Shown in pieces: positions 3,787 to 20,726 of a stretch of 30,119 nucleotides of DNA; the stretch's first letter is position 1, and every line of letters starts with the position of its first letter. Origin of the DNA: a virus; the IMG/VR virus record IMGVR_UViG_3300028388_001400, positions 1 to 30,119 of that record. One strand, written 5' to 3'. The notes under the pieces are model-generated. The model did not search any database and was not told the DNA's origin. It saw nothing but the letters and a program-made list of their open reading frames with translations. Position numbers and translations under genes: made by a program.

Positions 3787-4200
3787 ATGGAACAGGACCA
3801 CCAAAAAGAAAAGAAACACCCGGAAAAGGTCGCCAAATTGATCGAGGCGGGCAAAAGTACCCGTTTCCCGAATAACGACCCGACAAAAGGCGGCCGGAAC
3901 CCGTCGGTAAGGAAACAAATAAGGCAATTGCTAAACGCCAACGGTCATTTTGTTATACCGCGCGACCTGGTGGTTAACGAAGCCCCGGACGAATTAACAA
4001 TCGAGTTACCGACCGAATTAGCGATCGCCCAAAGGTTATTGGATTTGGCGGCGCGGGGCGGAGCAAAAACCGCATTGGACGCGATAAAGGTAATTTTGGA
4101 TCAGATAGACGGCAAACCAACCCAGGAAATACAAGGCAATATGAATTTCAATGGGTTTAAGTTGTCCCAGTTAATAGAATTCGTTGATAACGACGACTAA
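3787..4200 (+). CDS. terS: Terminase small subunit-like protein
   Basis: The 137-residue protein begins with a basic stretch and the phrase GKSTRFPNNDPTKGGRNPSV (residues 23-42), the G-x-S-x-x-F-x-x-x-N-P-x-K-G-G/R-x linker seen at the start of DUF5681-like and small-terminase-like phage proteins. Helices follow (VRKQIRQLLNANG; AIAQRLLDLAARGGAKTALDAI). It lies immediately upstream of and overlaps the large terminase gene, the standard place for the DNA-recognition subunit of the packaging motor. The family assignment is from position plus sequence style; moderate certainty. Confidence 0.6.
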   Translation: MEQDHQKEKKHPEKVAKLIEAGKSTRFPNNDPTKGGRNPSVRKQIRQLLNANGHFVIPRDLVVNEAPDELTIELPTELAIAQRLLDLAARGGAKTALDAIKVILDQIDGKPTQEIQGNMNFNGFKLSQLIEFVDNDD

Positions 4201-5407
4201 AACAAAACTAAACAGTAGATACCGCCCGTTGTTTTCGGCGGACAGTCGGTATTTTATTATTATCGGTGGCCGGGGTTCGGGAAAATCTTTTGCGGTTTCA
4301 TTTTTCCCAACCTTATTAACTTTTGAGGCCGGCCACCGTATTTTATTCACACGTCAAACAATGACGTCCGCGCATTTATCAATAATACCGGAAGTTGAAG
4401 AGAAAATCGATTTGTTGGGGGCGGGCGGGTTGTTTCATTCTACAAAACGCGAAGTCATAAACAGGGCGACAGATAGCGCGATCATATTTCGGGGTATTAA
4501 GTCGTCAAGCGGGGACCAAACCGCAAATTTGAAATCGTTAAAGGGCGTTACAACCTGGATCGTTGACGAGGCTGAAGAGTTAACCGACGAAACCAAATTC
4601 GATACGATCGATTTATCAGTTAGGCAAAAGGGACCCCAAAACCGCGTTATCCTGGTATTGAACCCAGCGACAAAGGAACATTGGATTTATAAACGTTTTT
4701 ACGAGGCGGCCGGGGTCCCGGATATGTTTAACGGGACGGTCGGCGACGTTACGTATATCCATACGACCTATTTAGACAACCGCGAAAATTTAGACAGGAA
4801 TTACGTTAAGCGGTTGGACGAAATGAAAACGACCAACCCCAGCAAATACCAACACCGTATTTTAGGGACCTGGAAAGATAAGGCCGACGGGGTAGTTTTC
4901 AACAACTGGAAATTCGGACCGTTTAACCCCCAGGGGTTGCCGGTAATTTTCGGCCAGGATTACGGGTACAACCCGGACCCCACAACCTTAATCGAGGTTG
5001 CAATAAGCGTTAAGAAAAAACGTATTTGGGTAAAAGAACATTTATACAAAACGGGGTTGTCGACGTCCCAAATTGGAACGATCAATAAAGAGGTGGCCGG
5101 CAATAATTTAATCGTTGGCGATTCGGCCGAACCCCGATTAATTGCCGAATTAGAATCAACCCACCGGAATAACATTATAGAATCGATAAAGGGTCAGGGA
5201 TCTGTTAACCTGGGTATTACTCAATTACTGGATTTTGAAATAATTGTCGACCCGGATTCGGCCAACGTCGCAAAGGAATTAAACAACTTTGTTTATGCGG
5301 ATAAGAAAACGGCGTTAACTATTGACGACTACAACCATACGATCGACCCGTTGCGCTATGTGTTGACGTATTATTTAGGCGGGCGACAAACGGTTGAAAT
5401 TCGATAA
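4184..5407 (+). CDS. terL: Terminase large subunit
   Basis: A 407-residue packaging ATPase/nuclease. The Walker A motif is GGRGSGKS (residues 28-35), Walker B is WIVDEAEE (125-132, D128/E129), and a coupling-type motif is LVLNPAT (158-163). The C-terminal RNase H-like nuclease has acidic residues in FGQDYGYN (D259), VGDSAEP (D313) and the H-T-I-D-P-L-R-Y motif (D388). This matches PBSX-type (Terminase_3) large terminases in length and layout. No ATG is near the required start; TTG at 4184, overlapping the small subunit gene by 17 bases, is the best start. Unusually, the portal gene is not next; the tail module follows instead. Confidence 0.92.
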   Translation: MITTTKTKLNSRYRPLFSADSRYFIIIGGRGSGKSFAVSFFPTLLTFEAGHRILFTRQTMTSAHLSIIPEVEEKIDLLGAGGLFHSTKREVINRATDSAIIFRGIKSSSGDQTANLKSLKGVTTWIVDEAEELTDETKFDTIDLSVRQKGPQNRVILVLNPATKEHWIYKRFYEAAGVPDMFNGTVGDVTYIHTTYLDNRENLDRNYVKRLDEMKTTNPSKYQHRILGTWKDKADGVVFNNWKFGPFNPQGLPVIFGQDYGYNPDPTTLIEVAISVKKKRIWVKEHLYKTGLSTSQIGTINKEVAGNNLIVGDSAEPRLIAELESTHRNNIIESIKGQGSVNLGITQLLDFEIIVDPDSANVAKELNNFVYADKKTALTIDDYNHTIDPLRYVLTYYLGGRQTVEIR

Positions 5408-13812: not shown

Positions 13813-15003
13813 ATGGCAAGAAAAACATTTGAGGCGAAATTTAAACCCGGAAAAAAAGGGGTTTTTGCTATTTCATTGGTAAACGATCCGGCTATGGAAT
13901 CGTTATTTGTCGCCCTGGGAAAACAAAAGGTTTTCAAGTTTAAAACCATTGACGAAGAGCAACGGTTATTGGTTGGTTTGGCAATGCAACCCGACAAATT
14001 AATACCGCGCGTCGATCAGGTTACAGGCGAGGAATACGATTTAGTTTTCCGATCCGATACAATCCGCGAATTATCCTATAATTTTTTCAAACAAAAGGCC
14101 CAGGATAAAAGCAAATTAGAACATTTGGACTGGATCGACGGCGTTAACGTTGTTGAAAGTTGGATTAAAACCGACGAAAAACACGATAAGTCCCACGCGT
14201 TCGGATTCAATAACCCGGTCGGGTCCTGGTTTGTCGCAATGAAAATCGACAACCCGTCAATTTGGGAACATTACGTTAAGACCGGAAAAGTTCAGGGGTT
14301 TAGCGTCGACGCAATGTTAAGTTTACAGGAAATCGAATTATCAAACAATAAGGAAATGAAAAATATCTTACAGCTACTTAAAAAAGCAAAACCCGAACCA
14401 ACGACCGAACCAAAACCCGAAACGTTCGGGTCGATCAAGTCGGGCGAAGTCGACATTATGTTTGACGGCGAAACGTTGGCCCAGGGTCAGAAAGTTTGGG
14501 CAATGGGCGAGGACGGAAACCGAATCGCAATTCCGGCCGGGGAATATGAGTTGGAAAACGGAATGAAAATTACCGTTAACGAAAATTCCGAGGTGGCCGA
14601 AATGGTCGAAATGAACCAGGAACCCGACGCCGGAACCCCGGACGCCGGAACCCCAGCACCCGCACCCGCCGCCGCCCCAGGTTTGAGCGAATCGGAAATC
14701 CAAAAAATAAAATCTGTATTGGTTAAGTTCGAAGTCGACGAAAACCAAACGGACGTATTCGAACAGGTGGCCGAATTGAGCGCGCAAAACACCGCGTTAC
14801 AAAAAAAGGTAAAGGAATTATTAACCGTCGACGCGAAGTTGGCGGAATTAACCGCGGCGAACGAAAAATTGGTTGAGCGAATCGAAGAGTTAGAAAGCCA
14901 ACCCGCCGGAACCCCGATCGCACCCAGGGCGGAAAACACAACCCCAGCGGTTGAATTGAACGCTACCGGGCGGATTTTGACCAAATTAAGGAAAGCAAAA
15001 TAA
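13813..15003 (+). CDS. XkdF-like prohead protease fused to scaffold region
   Basis: The 396-residue protein has an N-terminal protease region of the XkdF/Peptidase S78-like type: K-L-E-H-L-D-W (H104), N-V-V-E-S-W (112-117), P-V-G-S-W-F-V (135-141) and a G-F-S-V-D-A (S164) active-site motif. Residues about 190-396 are low-complexity and coiled-coil (PDAGTPDAGTPAPAPAAAP, then ALQKKVKELLTVDAKLAELT), typical of a scaffold joined to the protease. It would process the prohead and scaffold. The ATG at 13813 is used; an ATG at 13799 is out of frame. The major capsid gene lies one gene downstream. Confidence 0.75.
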   Translation: MARKTFEAKFKPGKKGVFAISLVNDPAMESLFVALGKQKVFKFKTIDEEQRLLVGLAMQPDKLIPRVDQVTGEEYDLVFRSDTIRELSYNFFKQKAQDKSKLEHLDWIDGVNVVESWIKTDEKHDKSHAFGFNNPVGSWFVAMKIDNPSIWEHYVKTGKVQGFSVDAMLSLQEIELSNNKEMKNILQLLKKAKPEPTTEPKPETFGSIKSGEVDIMFDGETLAQGQKVWAMGEDGNRIAIPAGEYELENGMKITVNENSEVAEMVEMNQEPDAGTPDAGTPAPAPAAAPGLSESEIQKIKSVLVKFEVDENQTDVFEQVAELSAQNTALQKKVKELLTVDAKLAELTAANEKLVERIEELESQPAGTPIAPRAENTTPAVELNATGRILTKLRKAK

Positions 15004-16424: not shown

Positions 16425-16940
16425 ATGAGTTGTGATATTTCAAGCGGCCGGGCGCGGCAATGTAGGGACCAAATAGGGGGTAATTCAACCTTGTATTTGT
16501 TTAACTACGTCGAGGACCCCTTTACATACGCCAACGGCGCGGCGACCGCAATAAACGCCAGTTTAACCACCGTTTACGAATTCCCGTTGTTTGGGGACAA
16601 CAACACGTTAACCCAAACACAAACGCCGGATCGTAACGCTGGGACGACGGTAAACGAACAGGAATTAGTTGTTGAATTGCCAAAATTGGATGCGGTAACG
16701 TCCGCCCAATTTGATTTGTTGACATACGGTTACGCCCAGGCGGTTGTAAAGGACCGACAAGGCAATTACCACGCATTAGGGATTTTGGACGGTATGGACT
16801 GGACGGTTGAAGCCTTAACAGGTGGTGCAAAGTCCGGCGATTTTGTCGGTTATCGATTAACCGGAACGGCAGAAACAAAGGAATTGGCCCCGTTGTTGGA
16901 TGCGGCCACCGTTACCGCATTTTTATTGCTGGTTGCGTAA
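16425..16940 (+). CDS. Tail-tube-like protein, copy 1
   Basis: A 171-residue protein starting MSCDISSGRARQCRDQIGG, an N-terminus that I recognise from a Bacteroidota phage structural family (M-S-C-D-I-x-x-G-R-x-x-x-C-x-D-x-I-G-G). It contains T-L-T-Q-T-Q-T-P-D-R-N-A-G-T-T-V and K-D-R-Q-G-N-Y-H-A-L-G-I-L-D-G. It shares this plan with the gene at 20166-20726 (T-x-Q-T-x-R-x-N-G, R-x-G-N-Y-x-x-L-G). Likely a tail tube or tail-tube-related protein; assigned from pattern and position. It ends the head module before a terminator. Confidence 0.55.
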   Translation: MSCDISSGRARQCRDQIGGNSTLYLFNYVEDPFTYANGAATAINASLTTVYEFPLFGDNNTLTQTQTPDRNAGTTVNEQELVVELPKLDAVTSAQFDLLTYGYAQAVVKDRQGNYHALGILDGMDWTVEALTGGAKSGDFVGYRLTGTAETKELAPLLDAATVTAFLLLVA

Positions 16941-17066: not shown

Positions 17067-17372
17067 ATGAATGTAATAAACCACAACGACGCGTCGCATA
17101 CGATCCGGGTAATTCCCCGGCGGTATTGCGTCGGCGCGTTGACCCTGGAATTGCGCGACGAATACACAAAGACCACCACCACCCCAACCCCGACGTTTTA
17201 TTTTGACAGCGGATATTTGTATTTAACCTTTGCGTTGACCGCTGGGGAAAACGACAAATACAGGGTTAAAATAACCGATACCAGCGGGGTAATATACCGA
17301 GGCAAAATAATTGCCACCGCGCAATCAACCCAGGAATACGAATTAAACCCGACCGCATATCGTTATGACTAA
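17067..17372 (+). CDS. Small beta-rich structural protein of portal module
   Basis: A 101-residue protein with alternating strands (GALTLELRDEYTKT, TFYFDSGYLYLTFALTAGEND, KYRVKITDTSGVIYRGKI) and no membrane or signal segment. The strand pattern resembles small phage Ig-like or connector-associated proteins. It overlaps the portal gene by 8 bases and is the first gene behind the third module-boundary box. I cannot name the family. A structural or assembly role is likely from position. Confidence 0.5.
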   Translation: MNVINHNDASHTIRVIPRRYCVGALTLELRDEYTKTTTTPTPTFYFDSGYLYLTFALTAGENDKYRVKITDTSGVIYRGKIIATAQSTQEYELNPTAYRYD

Positions 17373-19599
17373 AAAAAAGGACAACAAAGATTTGACGTTT
17401 GAAATACGGACAATCGAATTAGGATCTTACACGCGGCCGGAAGTAAAGGAAAGCCGCGGTGATGATTTTGTATTGTATGGACGCGACAATTATTTTTTCC
17501 AAAAACTTATCGATTTAAACGAGGGGTCCCCGACCAACGCGTCAATTAACAAAACGTATTCCGACCTAATTTACGGCCAGGGGTTACGGGCGAAAAACGC
17601 CAGTTCAAATATTGAGCAATGGACCCGGTTTAAACAGATCATTACCGACGACCATATCAAACGCATTTGCATAGATTTTCAAATGTTCGGTTCGGCCGCA
17701 TTTCAGGGAATCGAAACAAAGGGTAAAGGGTTGGCCCAACTGGTCCACGTACCGCGAAATATGGTTGCACCTGGAAAAGCGGACGAAAAGGGCGATGTTA
17801 ACGAATATTGGTTTTGTCGGGACTGGGGTAAACGACGAAAAGATGAATTTAAACCAAAGGCGTACCCAGCGTTTGAGCGGGGAAAAAAGGAATGGATATA
17901 CGACGTTAAAAATTATTCCCCTGGAAAAGAATATTACGCCGACCCCGATTATTTGGCCGCCGTTCCTTATTGCGATATGGAATCGGAATTGGCCAACCTA
18001 AATATCAGGTCCATAAAACAAGGGTTGATCGCGGGTTATATTATCAACGTACCAAACGCCGCGAATTGGTCGGACGAACAAAAAGAAGAGTTCGAAAAAC
18101 GCATTAAACAAAAATTAACCGGCACAAACAACGCGTCGCAATTCGTGTTGTCTTTTAATGGCCGGGACGTTGAAATTACCGTTACCCCGTTCCCTGTAAA
18201 CGAACGCATACACAAACAATGGGAATTTTTGGTTAGTGAGGCCAGGCAACAAATATTAACCGCGCACCGCGCAACGTCGCCATCATTGGCCGGGGTAATT
18301 TCGTCGTCAGGATTCAGTAATACCGCCGACGAAATGGATATGGCCGAAAAACAATTGGTTAAGCGGGTTATAAAGCCAAAACAGGACGCAATTATTAACG
18401 CATTAAACGACGTTTTGACGTCCTACGAAATCAATTTGGACCTTTATTTCGAACCTTTAACACCGGACGAGCCCGATTTACTGGGTTTTAATCAGACCCG
18501 CCGCGGATCAACCCCAGGCGGACGGGTCGATTTGTCGGGGTTTGATCCTAACCAACCCCGCGATAAGGACGGGAAATGGACCGACGGCGGGAAAACAACA
18601 ACAAATAAACCAAAAATTGTTTTGGGTAACGCCGGACGTATAATTTTTCCCAGTCTCGACGAAAAATATAATGGATTAATTGATTACGATATTTACTACA
18701 ACGAATCAACCGGGATAATTACATTATCGCGAATTGTAGTTACTGAAAATGAGCGCGGCGGGGGAATTGGTGGTAAATACCTAAAAACACTAATTAATTA
18801 CGCTAACAGTATAGGGGCGACAATCGCGTTAACCCCCAGTTCAGATTTTGGCGGGGATAAGGAAAAGCTAATAAAGTGGTATAAAAAATACGGTTTTGTT
18901 TTAAATAGAGGCGAAAACAAAGATTTTTTAATACGTGATTTAATGTACCGCCCACCAAATACAACACAATTCGCGAAAATATCAACGGATCGCATTAACG
19001 AAATGAACGATTATTTGGACGCGATCGCCGAACCAATGCCGGAGGGGTTCCAGTTCTGTTTTGCGTACCCTGTAACGGAACCGGCGACCGAATTAAGGTC
19101 ATACGCCAATAGCGTACACGACAGCGACGACGGCCTTTGGAAAATACGTTATCGATATACCCAGGGGGTACGGGACGAATACTACAACGACGACGGTAAG
19201 GGGGAATCGCGCCCGTTTTGCAAGAAAATGACCGAGTTATCGAACAATGGCCGCGTTTTTAGGATCGAGGACATTTTAAAAATGGAACAGGACGGCGTTA
19301 ATAAAGAGTTCGGCCACCCCGACGCGGACGGGAACCCACAACCGTATTCGATTTGGTTACACGCCGGCGGTATTAATTGTTACCACCGCTGGGAACGGGC
19401 GATATTCAAAAAGAAACGAAACGACGACGGCGAACCCCTGGGGGGCAATGCCACGCAAAATACATTTCCAGTTAACGTAAACGAGGCCCGACGACAGGGC
19501 GCGCCAATTCCGGGTAACGATCCGGATGTTGCAAAGCCTGAAATAACCAAACCGTCCAGGGGCCACCACCCGGACAACCCGAATTACATACCCGAATAG
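17365..19599 (+). CDS. Portal protein with inserted GNAT-like domain and MuF-like C-terminus
   Basis: A 744-residue protein. Residues 1-385 look like a Bacteroidota phage portal (LYGRDNYFFQKLIDLNEGSP, then SASINKT-like repeats, I-T-A-H-R-A-T-S-P-S-L-A-G-V near 290). A linker FDPNQPRDKDGKWTDGG (393-409) is followed by a GNAT-like domain (about 417-525): core strand TLSRIVV, acetyl-CoA loop R-G-G-G-I-G-G (464-470) and W-Y-K-K-Y-G-F (505-511). Residues about 540-700 resemble a MuF/SPP1 gp7-like domain with S-R-P-F-C (C619) and N-C-Y-H-R-W (C672, H674). The GNAT stretch is more AT-rich than its surroundings, as expected for an insertion. The portal/MuF assignment is from recognition; the GNAT motif is clear. 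Confidence 0.7.
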   Translation: MTKKKDNKDLTFEIRTIELGSYTRPEVKESRGDDFVLYGRDNYFFQKLIDLNEGSPTNASINKTYSDLIYGQGLRAKNASSNIEQWTRFKQIITDDHIKRICIDFQMFGSAAFQGIETKGKGLAQLVHVPRNMVAPGKADEKGDVNEYWFCRDWGKRRKDEFKPKAYPAFERGKKEWIYDVKNYSPGKEYYADPDYLAAVPYCDMESELANLNIRSIKQGLIAGYIINVPNAANWSDEQKEEFEKRIKQKLTGTNNASQFVLSFNGRDVEITVTPFPVNERIHKQWEFLVSEARQQILTAHRATSPSLAGVISSSGFSNTADEMDMAEKQLVKRVIKPKQDAIINALNDVLTSYEINLDLYFEPLTPDEPDLLGFNQTRRGSTPGGRVDLSGFDPNQPRDKDGKWTDGGKTTTNKPKIVLGNAGRIIFPSLDEKYNGLIDYDIYYNESTGIITLSRIVVTENERGGGIGGKYLKTLINYANSIGATIALTPSSDFGGDKEKLIKWYKKYGFVLNRGENKDFLIRDLMYRPPNTTQFAKISTDRINEMNDYLDAIAEPMPEGFQFCFAYPVTEPATELRSYANSVHDSDDGLWKIRYRYTQGVRDEYYNDDGKGESRPFCKKMTELSNNGRVFRIEDILKMEQDGVNKEFGHPDADGNPQPYSIWLHAGGINCYHRWERAIFKKKRNDDGEPLGGNATQNTFPVNVNEARRQGAPIPGNDPDVAKPEITKPSRGHHPDNPNYIPE

Positions 19600-19601
19600 C
19601 T

Positions 19602-20165
19602 ATGGCTGAATACTTATTTATTACCCCAACCGATTTAAAGTCAACGACCGTATTAGGCGGCAACGTTGACGAAGATAAATATTTGTTTTGCGTTGCAGAT
19701 ATTCAAATTACGCTTATCGAACGCCTATTGGGTACGGAATTGTACGACAAAATAAAATCCGAGGCGGACGCGGGGACCATTACCGGCGATTACGAAACGA
19801 TTTTAAACGAATACGTAAAACCGATTACCAAACACGCGGCTTTAGCCAATTACATAAAAATCGCCAATTTCCAGGTCGGCAACGGCGGGGTATTCAAAAA
19901 CGCGCCCGATCAAAAACAAATTGTCGAGGCCGACGAAATAGACGAATTGGCCGAACGATACCGCAATATGGCCGACGTTTACGTATTAAGGTTTAACAAA
20001 TGGATCTGTAAAAATTCGGCGTCAATACCGGAATACAAATTAGAACAGGACGACGTAAACGCCAGCCGCGATATTTCTAATTCGTCGGGTTGGTGGCTGG
20101 GTAAATCCGGGTTAAGTGAGGACGAATTAATGGATATAAAAATGGGTTTCCCAATTGACGACTAA
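19602..20165 (+). CDS. Head-tail connector-like protein (DUF6712-like)
   Basis: A 187-residue protein, mostly helical. The N-terminal phrase FITPTDLKSTTVLGGNVDED, followed by I-Q-I-T-L-I-E-R-L-L-G-T-E-L-Y-D-K-I, matches a family (DUF6712 type) of Bacteroidota phage proteins near the portal that resemble gp6-type head-completion/connector proteins. It follows the portal gene after 2 bases and abuts the tail-tube-like gene. The role as head-tail adaptor is from family knowledge and position. Confidence 0.6.
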   Translation: MAEYLFITPTDLKSTTVLGGNVDEDKYLFCVADIQITLIERLLGTELYDKIKSEADAGTITGDYETILNEYVKPITKHAALANYIKIANFQVGNGGVFKNAPDQKQIVEADEIDELAERYRNMADVYVLRFNKWICKNSASIPEYKLEQDDVNASRDISNSSGWWLGKSGLSEDELMDIKMGFPIDD

Positions 20166-20726
20166 ATGGCAGACATTACAACCATACGACCCCGGCAAAA
20201 CAAAACTGTAATTGGTGGTATTGCGGCCGTTTACGTGTTTAAATACGCGCCCGTTGCGTTGTCCGCTATTGAGTACGACGGCAACCGGTTAACGTCATTT
20301 CCGGCAACGACTGTTTATCAAATTGACGGGGAAAACCTAAACGTTACCCAAACAACCAGGCGCGAAAACGGAACGGTGGTTTACGATCAGTCGTTACAAA
20401 TGGATATAAACGGCCCCGTTGTAGCGGACGAAATCCACAACCTTAATTTCCGGGATTACCGGGTTATTTACCGGGATCGAATCGGGAATTACCGCATTTT
20501 AGGGTTGTTTAACGGTTGTATTGCGGACGTCAACGAAAACACAGGAACGGAAAAAAGCGAAGCGAACGCTTACAACGTAACGTTTAACGGGGTCGAGCCG
20601 TTCGCGGCCAAATGGATTAACGATTTATCCGACGTTGGATTTACGATATTTGATTTAAACAACAAAGTATTCCAGTCCGGGTGCAATGCAATTACCCAGG
20701 CCGGTGATAATTTAATTTTTCAATAA
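20166..20726 (+). CDS. Tail-tube-like protein, copy 2
   Basis: A 186-residue beta-rich protein that follows the same plan as the gene at 16425-16940: I-G-G-I near the N-terminus, T-T-V-Y, then V-T-Q-T-T-R-R-E-N-G-T-V-V, then R-D-R-I-G-N-Y-R-I-L-G-L-F-N-G, then A-Y-N-V-T-F-N-G-V-E-P-F. Two proteins of one family in a single genome suggest either a major and a minor tail tube protein or a tube and a cap. It lies directly after the connector gene, in the portal module, which is unusual for a tail protein. It overlaps the fibre gene by 1 base (TAATG). Confidence 0.55.
   Translation: MADITTIRPRQNKTVIGGIAAVYVFKYAPVALSAIEYDGNRLTSFPATTVYQIDGENLNVTQTTRRENGTVVYDQSLQMDINGPVVADEIHNLNFRDYRVIYRDRIGNYRILGLFNGCIADVNENTGTEKSEANAYNVTFNGVEPFAAKWINDLSDVGFTIFDLNNKVFQSGCNAITQAGDNLIFQ

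Follow-up and report, generated by a model that had tools for sequence, protein, structure and literature searches.

Why does a viral portal gene hold an acetyltransferase domain, and what might the virus do with it? Phage proteins that are delivered with the DNA are hard to find by reading genomes because such enzymes hide in head proteins annotated simply as "portal". The window analysed here, meaning the whole viral stretch of 30,119 nucleotides, comes from a virus whose hosts are probably Flavobacteria-like bacteria. A sequence-only reading had described in it a single 744-residue frame joining a portal-like part, a linker, a GNAT core and a MuF-like C-terminus. The frame proved to be open and complete, and the account of a portal with an inserted linker and GNAT was confirmed; its interpretation as an insertion behind an effector-type linker stands as well, while the assignment of the C-terminus to Mu-F is not established. 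None of the outcomes named beforehand as refuting the reading occurred: structure prediction gives a GNAT, its loop for acetyl-CoA is whole, and most relatives do without the segment.

A GNAT domain within a portal protein

The gene and its surroundings are laid out as follows.

4184..5407, + strand: terminase large subunit (PHROG 2, E 2e-42)
13813..15003, + strand: probable head-maturation protease (PHROG 15223 protease, E 3e-11; PHROG 34096 head maturation protease, E 7.5e-6)
17365..19599, + strand: portal-linker-GNAT-C-terminal-domain fusion gene (744 aa; open, complete frame)
17407..18471, + strand: portal core, residues 15-369 (PHROG 33693, TIGR01540, Foldseek)
18541..18591, + strand: cassette linker FDPNQPRDKDGKWTDGG, residues 393-409 (consensus over 105 instances; exchange boundary in relatives)
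18634..18969, + strand: GNAT acetyltransferase domain, residues ~424-535 (Pfam, family alignment, AF2, Foldseek)
18754..18774, + strand: acetyl-CoA pyrophosphate loop R464-GGGIG-G470
18880..18882, + strand: Tyr506 of WYKKYGF, candidate general acid
19135..19434, + strand: C-terminal domain, residues ~591-690 (invariant R-x-F-C and G-G-x-x-C-x-H-x-W-x-R)
19602..20165, + strand: next gene, DUF6712 family, starting three bases downstream of the fusion gene

The terminase places the fusion gene in a head/packaging module, and terminase, protease and structural genes are all present in the window; gene context, sequence profile and fold agree on a portal. Residues 15-369 match the PHROG 33693 portal profile with an E value of 1e-89 and TIGR01540 with 2e-16 (under the curated cut-off of the latter), and the AF2 model of this core finds the GTA, HK97, Milano and HFTV1 portals in Foldseek (E 1e-9 to 1e-7). 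Since the full-length alignment behind the AF2 model was misaligned at residues 541-645, the C-terminal part of the model was kept out of the evidence. The portal is flanked by two genes that both match PHROG 19091 (16425-16940, E 2e-32; 20166-20726, E 7e-16), an apparent duplication within the head module.

For the GNAT core, Pfam, AF2 and Foldseek agree on the fold. The excised domain matches Acetyltransf_7 and Acetyltransf_1 with E values of 3e-5 and 1e-4, the second passing its curated cut-off, and its AF2 model has a core pLDDT of 92-97 and returns GCN5 and PCAF as top PDB matches with a Foldseek probability of 1.0, at TM-scores to solved GNATs of only about 0.5. The RGGGIGG loop at 464-470 and the WYKKYGF motif at 505-511 lie exactly where they had been read and are near-invariant in 78 homologues. 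In the loop, R464, G467 and G469 supply the (R/Q)-x-x-G-x-(G/A) pattern of acetyl-CoA binding and are conserved to 95%, 100% and 100%, and G467, G469, Y506, K507, G510, F511, N514 and G516 are invariant. By analogy with other GNATs, the 100% conserved Tyr506 is a candidate general acid.

The domain could instead be a structural passenger without catalytic activity, as it is short, with a reduced N-terminal half in the model, and departs from the family consensus at four positions (P460T, D481N, F505W and E513L). We regard this as distinctly improbable, since the P-loop and Tyr506 are both preserved in the window, both hardly vary among the 78 diverse homologues, and the AF2 core is confident. 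As had been noticed from the letters, the GNAT stretch is AT-rich, with 36.2% GC against 44.1% in the portal, 59% in the linker and 52% in the C-terminus, and only 0.2% of equal-length coding stretches reach a GC content as low.

The insertion is absent from most portal relatives

If the GNAT were a normal part of this portal family it would be found throughout, and nearly all portal relatives lack it. The portal of Nonlabens phage P12024S (PHROG 33693) shares the portal core and the C-terminal domain with the window and has 560 aa with neither linker nor GNAT, against 744 aa with both in the window; L001 is likewise 560 aa long without either, as are, at about this length, most close relatives. 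The distance from the portal core to the C-terminal domain is 256 aa in the window and 87-180 aa in most relatives. An alignment-based scan of 83 portals found the linker in the window, L006, L012 and L013 only, and in all four the extra inserted domains come after it. On the portal tree the window pairs weakly with the cargo-free L007 (95/62), and the cargo-bearing portals stand in separate places; the two cargo changes counted on the tree were no different from those on shuffles, so that it shows scattered placement only and not the number of gains.

Other departures from the common layout occur in the family. The portals of L040-L042 have a different insert, without linker, and a domain of the form 'NAKRALEW...WGGxxGxxWA' is conserved in several relatives (L040:7240-7470, L041 and the C-terminus of L006) at the same portal position or C-terminally, also without linker, with a weak match to PHROG 2859 as its sole match. 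Two further portals (L017:2516-3718 and L021:391-1578) end after the core, at 395-400 aa, and have no C-terminal domain.

The linker behaves as a boundary of cargo exchange

The linker had been noted as resembling those that introduce effector domains in phage head proteins. Its pattern is found once in the window, with 0 expected and none in shuffles. A DNA-pattern scan of viral contigs recovered at least 119 stretches and at least 129 ORFs, and the consensus is FDPxQPRDxDGKWTxGG, or more generally FDPxQPRDxDGKW-(T/G)-x-GG. Positions that the pattern left free are conserved as well over 105 instances (P5 60%, D/G7 74%, K/R11 86%, followed by a glycine run).

The two sides of the linker differ in what they hold. 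Among the matches listed for the 105 downstream pieces and the window, the linker is followed by ART-PolyVal, ADPrib_exo_Tox, PBECR3, GNAT, Zeta toxin, PI3/4-kinase, topoisomerase IB, Acb1-like and 2H domains; most pieces have no Pfam match, and portal, Mu-F and protease families are not found there. Upstream (79 pieces and the window, again among the matches listed) are several portal families, Mu-F and a head protease, together with ART-PolyVal where a second linker comes after a first cargo. The expectation of effector-type domains behind such linkers is therefore borne out, with mostly structural domains in front of them among these matches.

In two pairs the portal genes diverge at the linker. 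The DNA of L155 and L171 agrees at 96.6% as far as the last position of the linker, then encodes different cargo, and agrees again at 97.5% from the C-terminal domain on. L006 differs from L155 by one additional ART cassette, which starts at the second linker of L006. As these differences begin at the linker, exchange at this site is seen directly in the two pairs, and on sequence evidence the linker behaves as a boundary of cargo exchange between phages. With relatives that have other enzymes at the same spot, these viruses seem to swap cargo for delivery with the DNA. Near-identical gene pairs differing only in cargo are natural comparisons for the function of each cargo, and a linker that marks where the carrier ends and the cargo starts would allow injected effectors to be catalogued directly in many phages.

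In bacterial polymorphic toxins, motifs such as VENN delimit the swapped toxin tips. In a comparable way FDPxQPRDxDGKW-(T/G)-x-GG may be a general tailed-phage adaptor that lets portals, Mu-F proteins and proteases, head proteins unrelated to one another, take up interchangeable effectors, and which would be recognised in virion assembly or cut to free the cargo; we put this forward tentatively, as a possibility somewhat short of an even chance. Searching the literature for the linker strings turned up nothing but an unrelated paper on norovirus; the test is a weak one, since many papers give motifs in a figure and not in the text.

Two other contigs have unusual linker arrangements. In one (L118:5292-11849) three ORFs lying side by side contain four exact linker matches between them, which suggests an array of cargo genes headed by linkers. 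In the other (L173:6140-7144) the cargo behind the linker, which a second linker variant, FNPSQKRDKYGRW, precedes, has a 'THNHPNNSSFSxxDL' motif and by eye looks like a JAB-type peptidase.

The C-terminal domain is a family feature

The C-terminus had been read as MuF-like with paired Cys/His. Its R-x-F-C and C-x-H residues are invariant, and the domain is a conserved part of the portal family of the window; the Mu-F identity was not recovered by profile. Pfam Mu-F (PF04233) gave no hmmscan match in 43 members of the domain, hhalign against Mu-F gave a probability of 0.1-0.3% (98% for the L189 domain, the positive control), and a PDB profile search with the domain returned no significant match. 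Mu-F identity is thus not established by hmmscan or hhalign over three tests, and the domain is Mu-F-like by position and motif pattern only. In the window it is fused to the portal; L189 and L213 encode it in a gene of its own, the next one downstream of the portal, an order that in L189 resembles Mu-F gene order.

A polymorphic cargo behind a conserved carrier is also what Mu-F toxins have (PMC5576092, PMC11699363), and the fusion protein might on that model be a toxin against competing bacteria with an immunity partner. We consider this very improbable: the DUF6712 gene starts right after the fusion gene and leaves no room between them for an immunity gene, no small immunity gene is adjacent, the cargo is internal and not C-terminal, and Mu-F homology of the C-terminal domain is not established.

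The same GNAT occurs on unrelated carriers

A scan of viral contigs with the GNAT sequence of the window alone found nothing, and the family was recovered with a GNAT alignment as query. Viral contigs gave 307 pattern matches, of which 234 were confirmed as members; 84,980 prokaryote genomes gave 433, of which 16 were confirmed, so that the family is largely phage-borne. The closest annotated homologues by tblastn are in DarB-like and PLxRFG giant virion proteins of Serratia phage Parlo, Klebsiella phage ZX1, Pseudomonas phage Skulduggery and Vibrio phages, and the domain is accordingly one held in common with polyvalent proteins. Among polyvalent proteins, Iyer et al. 2017 distinguish two GNAT families that resemble RimI, one of which had until then been met mostly next to ART domains in phages of gammaproteobacteria (PMC5512222), and we infer that the window GNAT belongs to this one, the first family of the paper.

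Portals are also among the carriers. L195 has the same portal family as the window with the GNAT placed after the C-terminal domain, L212 has the same GNAT fused to another portal lineage, and in L247 and L278 it sits on PF06381 portals (E about 1e-77 to 1e-80) behind the related linker DHPRxxxGKFG. In the split version of L189 and L213 the portal is followed at once by a gene that encodes the C-terminal domain, ART-PolyVal and the GNAT behind two linkers. The L189 portal itself (L189:7481-7981) bears a linker-borne cargo matching PHROG 2579 (E 1e-28), so that two adjacent genes of that contig hold three cargo domains. The view that a GNAT in this place is not a standard portal architecture is right in that the arrangement is uncommon and wrong if taken to mean unique, as at least four further portals are fused to a GNAT and one split version exists; the order portal, linker, GNAT, C-terminal domain is found in the window only, among the matches listed.

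Compared with the window, the GNATs of these carriers are 47-52% identical and the portals 24-44% identical or without detectable similarity, and between L189 and L195 the GNAT is 75% identical (over 44 residues, L195 being cut off) and the portal 28%. As judged from these identities, the contrast is what a domain that has passed from one carrier to another would show.

The GNAT might act while virions are still being made or inside the head, on portal, capsid, scaffold or packaged DNA-binding proteins of the cell that produces them, with no delivery to the next host. It lies covalently within a portal, which normally stays behind, and has the C-terminal domain attached after it, both of which would suit such a role. 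We think it rather unlikely, since the same GNAT occurs on proteins of very different architecture, adjoins ART-PolyVal in L189, and shares its position behind the linker with effector-type enzymes, which is unexpected for a morphogenesis enzyme.

A probable virion-carried effector

The reading that we prefer, and consider probable, is that the gene encodes a portal loaded with an acetyltransferase effector, carried by the virion in the capsid lumen and delivered or acting at infection. The adaptor FDPxQPRDxDGKWTxGG and the acetyltransferase would have been inserted between the portal core and the C-terminal domain of the family. Portals have their C-terminal side turned towards the inside of the capsid, so that up to twelve GNAT copies could lie in the lumen of each virion. 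As portals normally stay in the capsid, injection would need cleavage or another release step, for which the predicted protease at 13813..15003 is the only candidate; the GNAT might be freed during head maturation or genome ejection, perhaps by a cut close to the linker. It may then enter the host and acetylate host proteins in favour of infection; RNA polymerase and proteins of host defence are conceivable targets.

Some steps of this model have precedents. SPP1 gp7, which is bound to the portal, illustrates how such a protein gets inside the capsid (PMC6316719), and phage GNATs reported to act on the host are Rac, which acetylates RNA polymerase (cited in PMC7824862), and AcrVA5, which acts on Cas12a (PMC9114340). 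The polyvalent GNATs and portal fusions of PMC5512222 are precedents as well.

Comparison with known systems

Mu-F polymorphic toxins (Jamet et al. 2017, PMC5576092; Bxa, PMC11699363) place a variable effector behind a head-protein carrier that is conserved and encoded in the packaging module, as in the window, which differs in having an internal cargo, no Mu-F domain by sequence and no adjacent immunity gene. The polyvalent GNATs (PMC5512222) are of the same family by sequence and fold, are phage-enriched and may stand beside ART domains as the window family does, and occur in DarB-like and PLxRFG giant proteins, whereas the window has one cassette behind a linker on a 744-aa portal. In the fusions of portal or Mu-F proteins to PBECR, 2H, InPase, NUDIX and ART (PMC5512222, PMC9503650) a head protein bears an enzyme proposed to be packaged and injected, again as in the window, where the cargo differs in being a GNAT and in lying between the portal core and the C-terminal domain. 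In the passages of these papers that the comparison covered there was no portal fused to a GNAT, no such linker and no use of it as an exchange boundary. The window fusion belongs with these already known polyvalent and Mu-F effector fusions, and what is new here, and more interesting than the GNAT-portal fusion itself, is the linker-delimited swapping of cargo.
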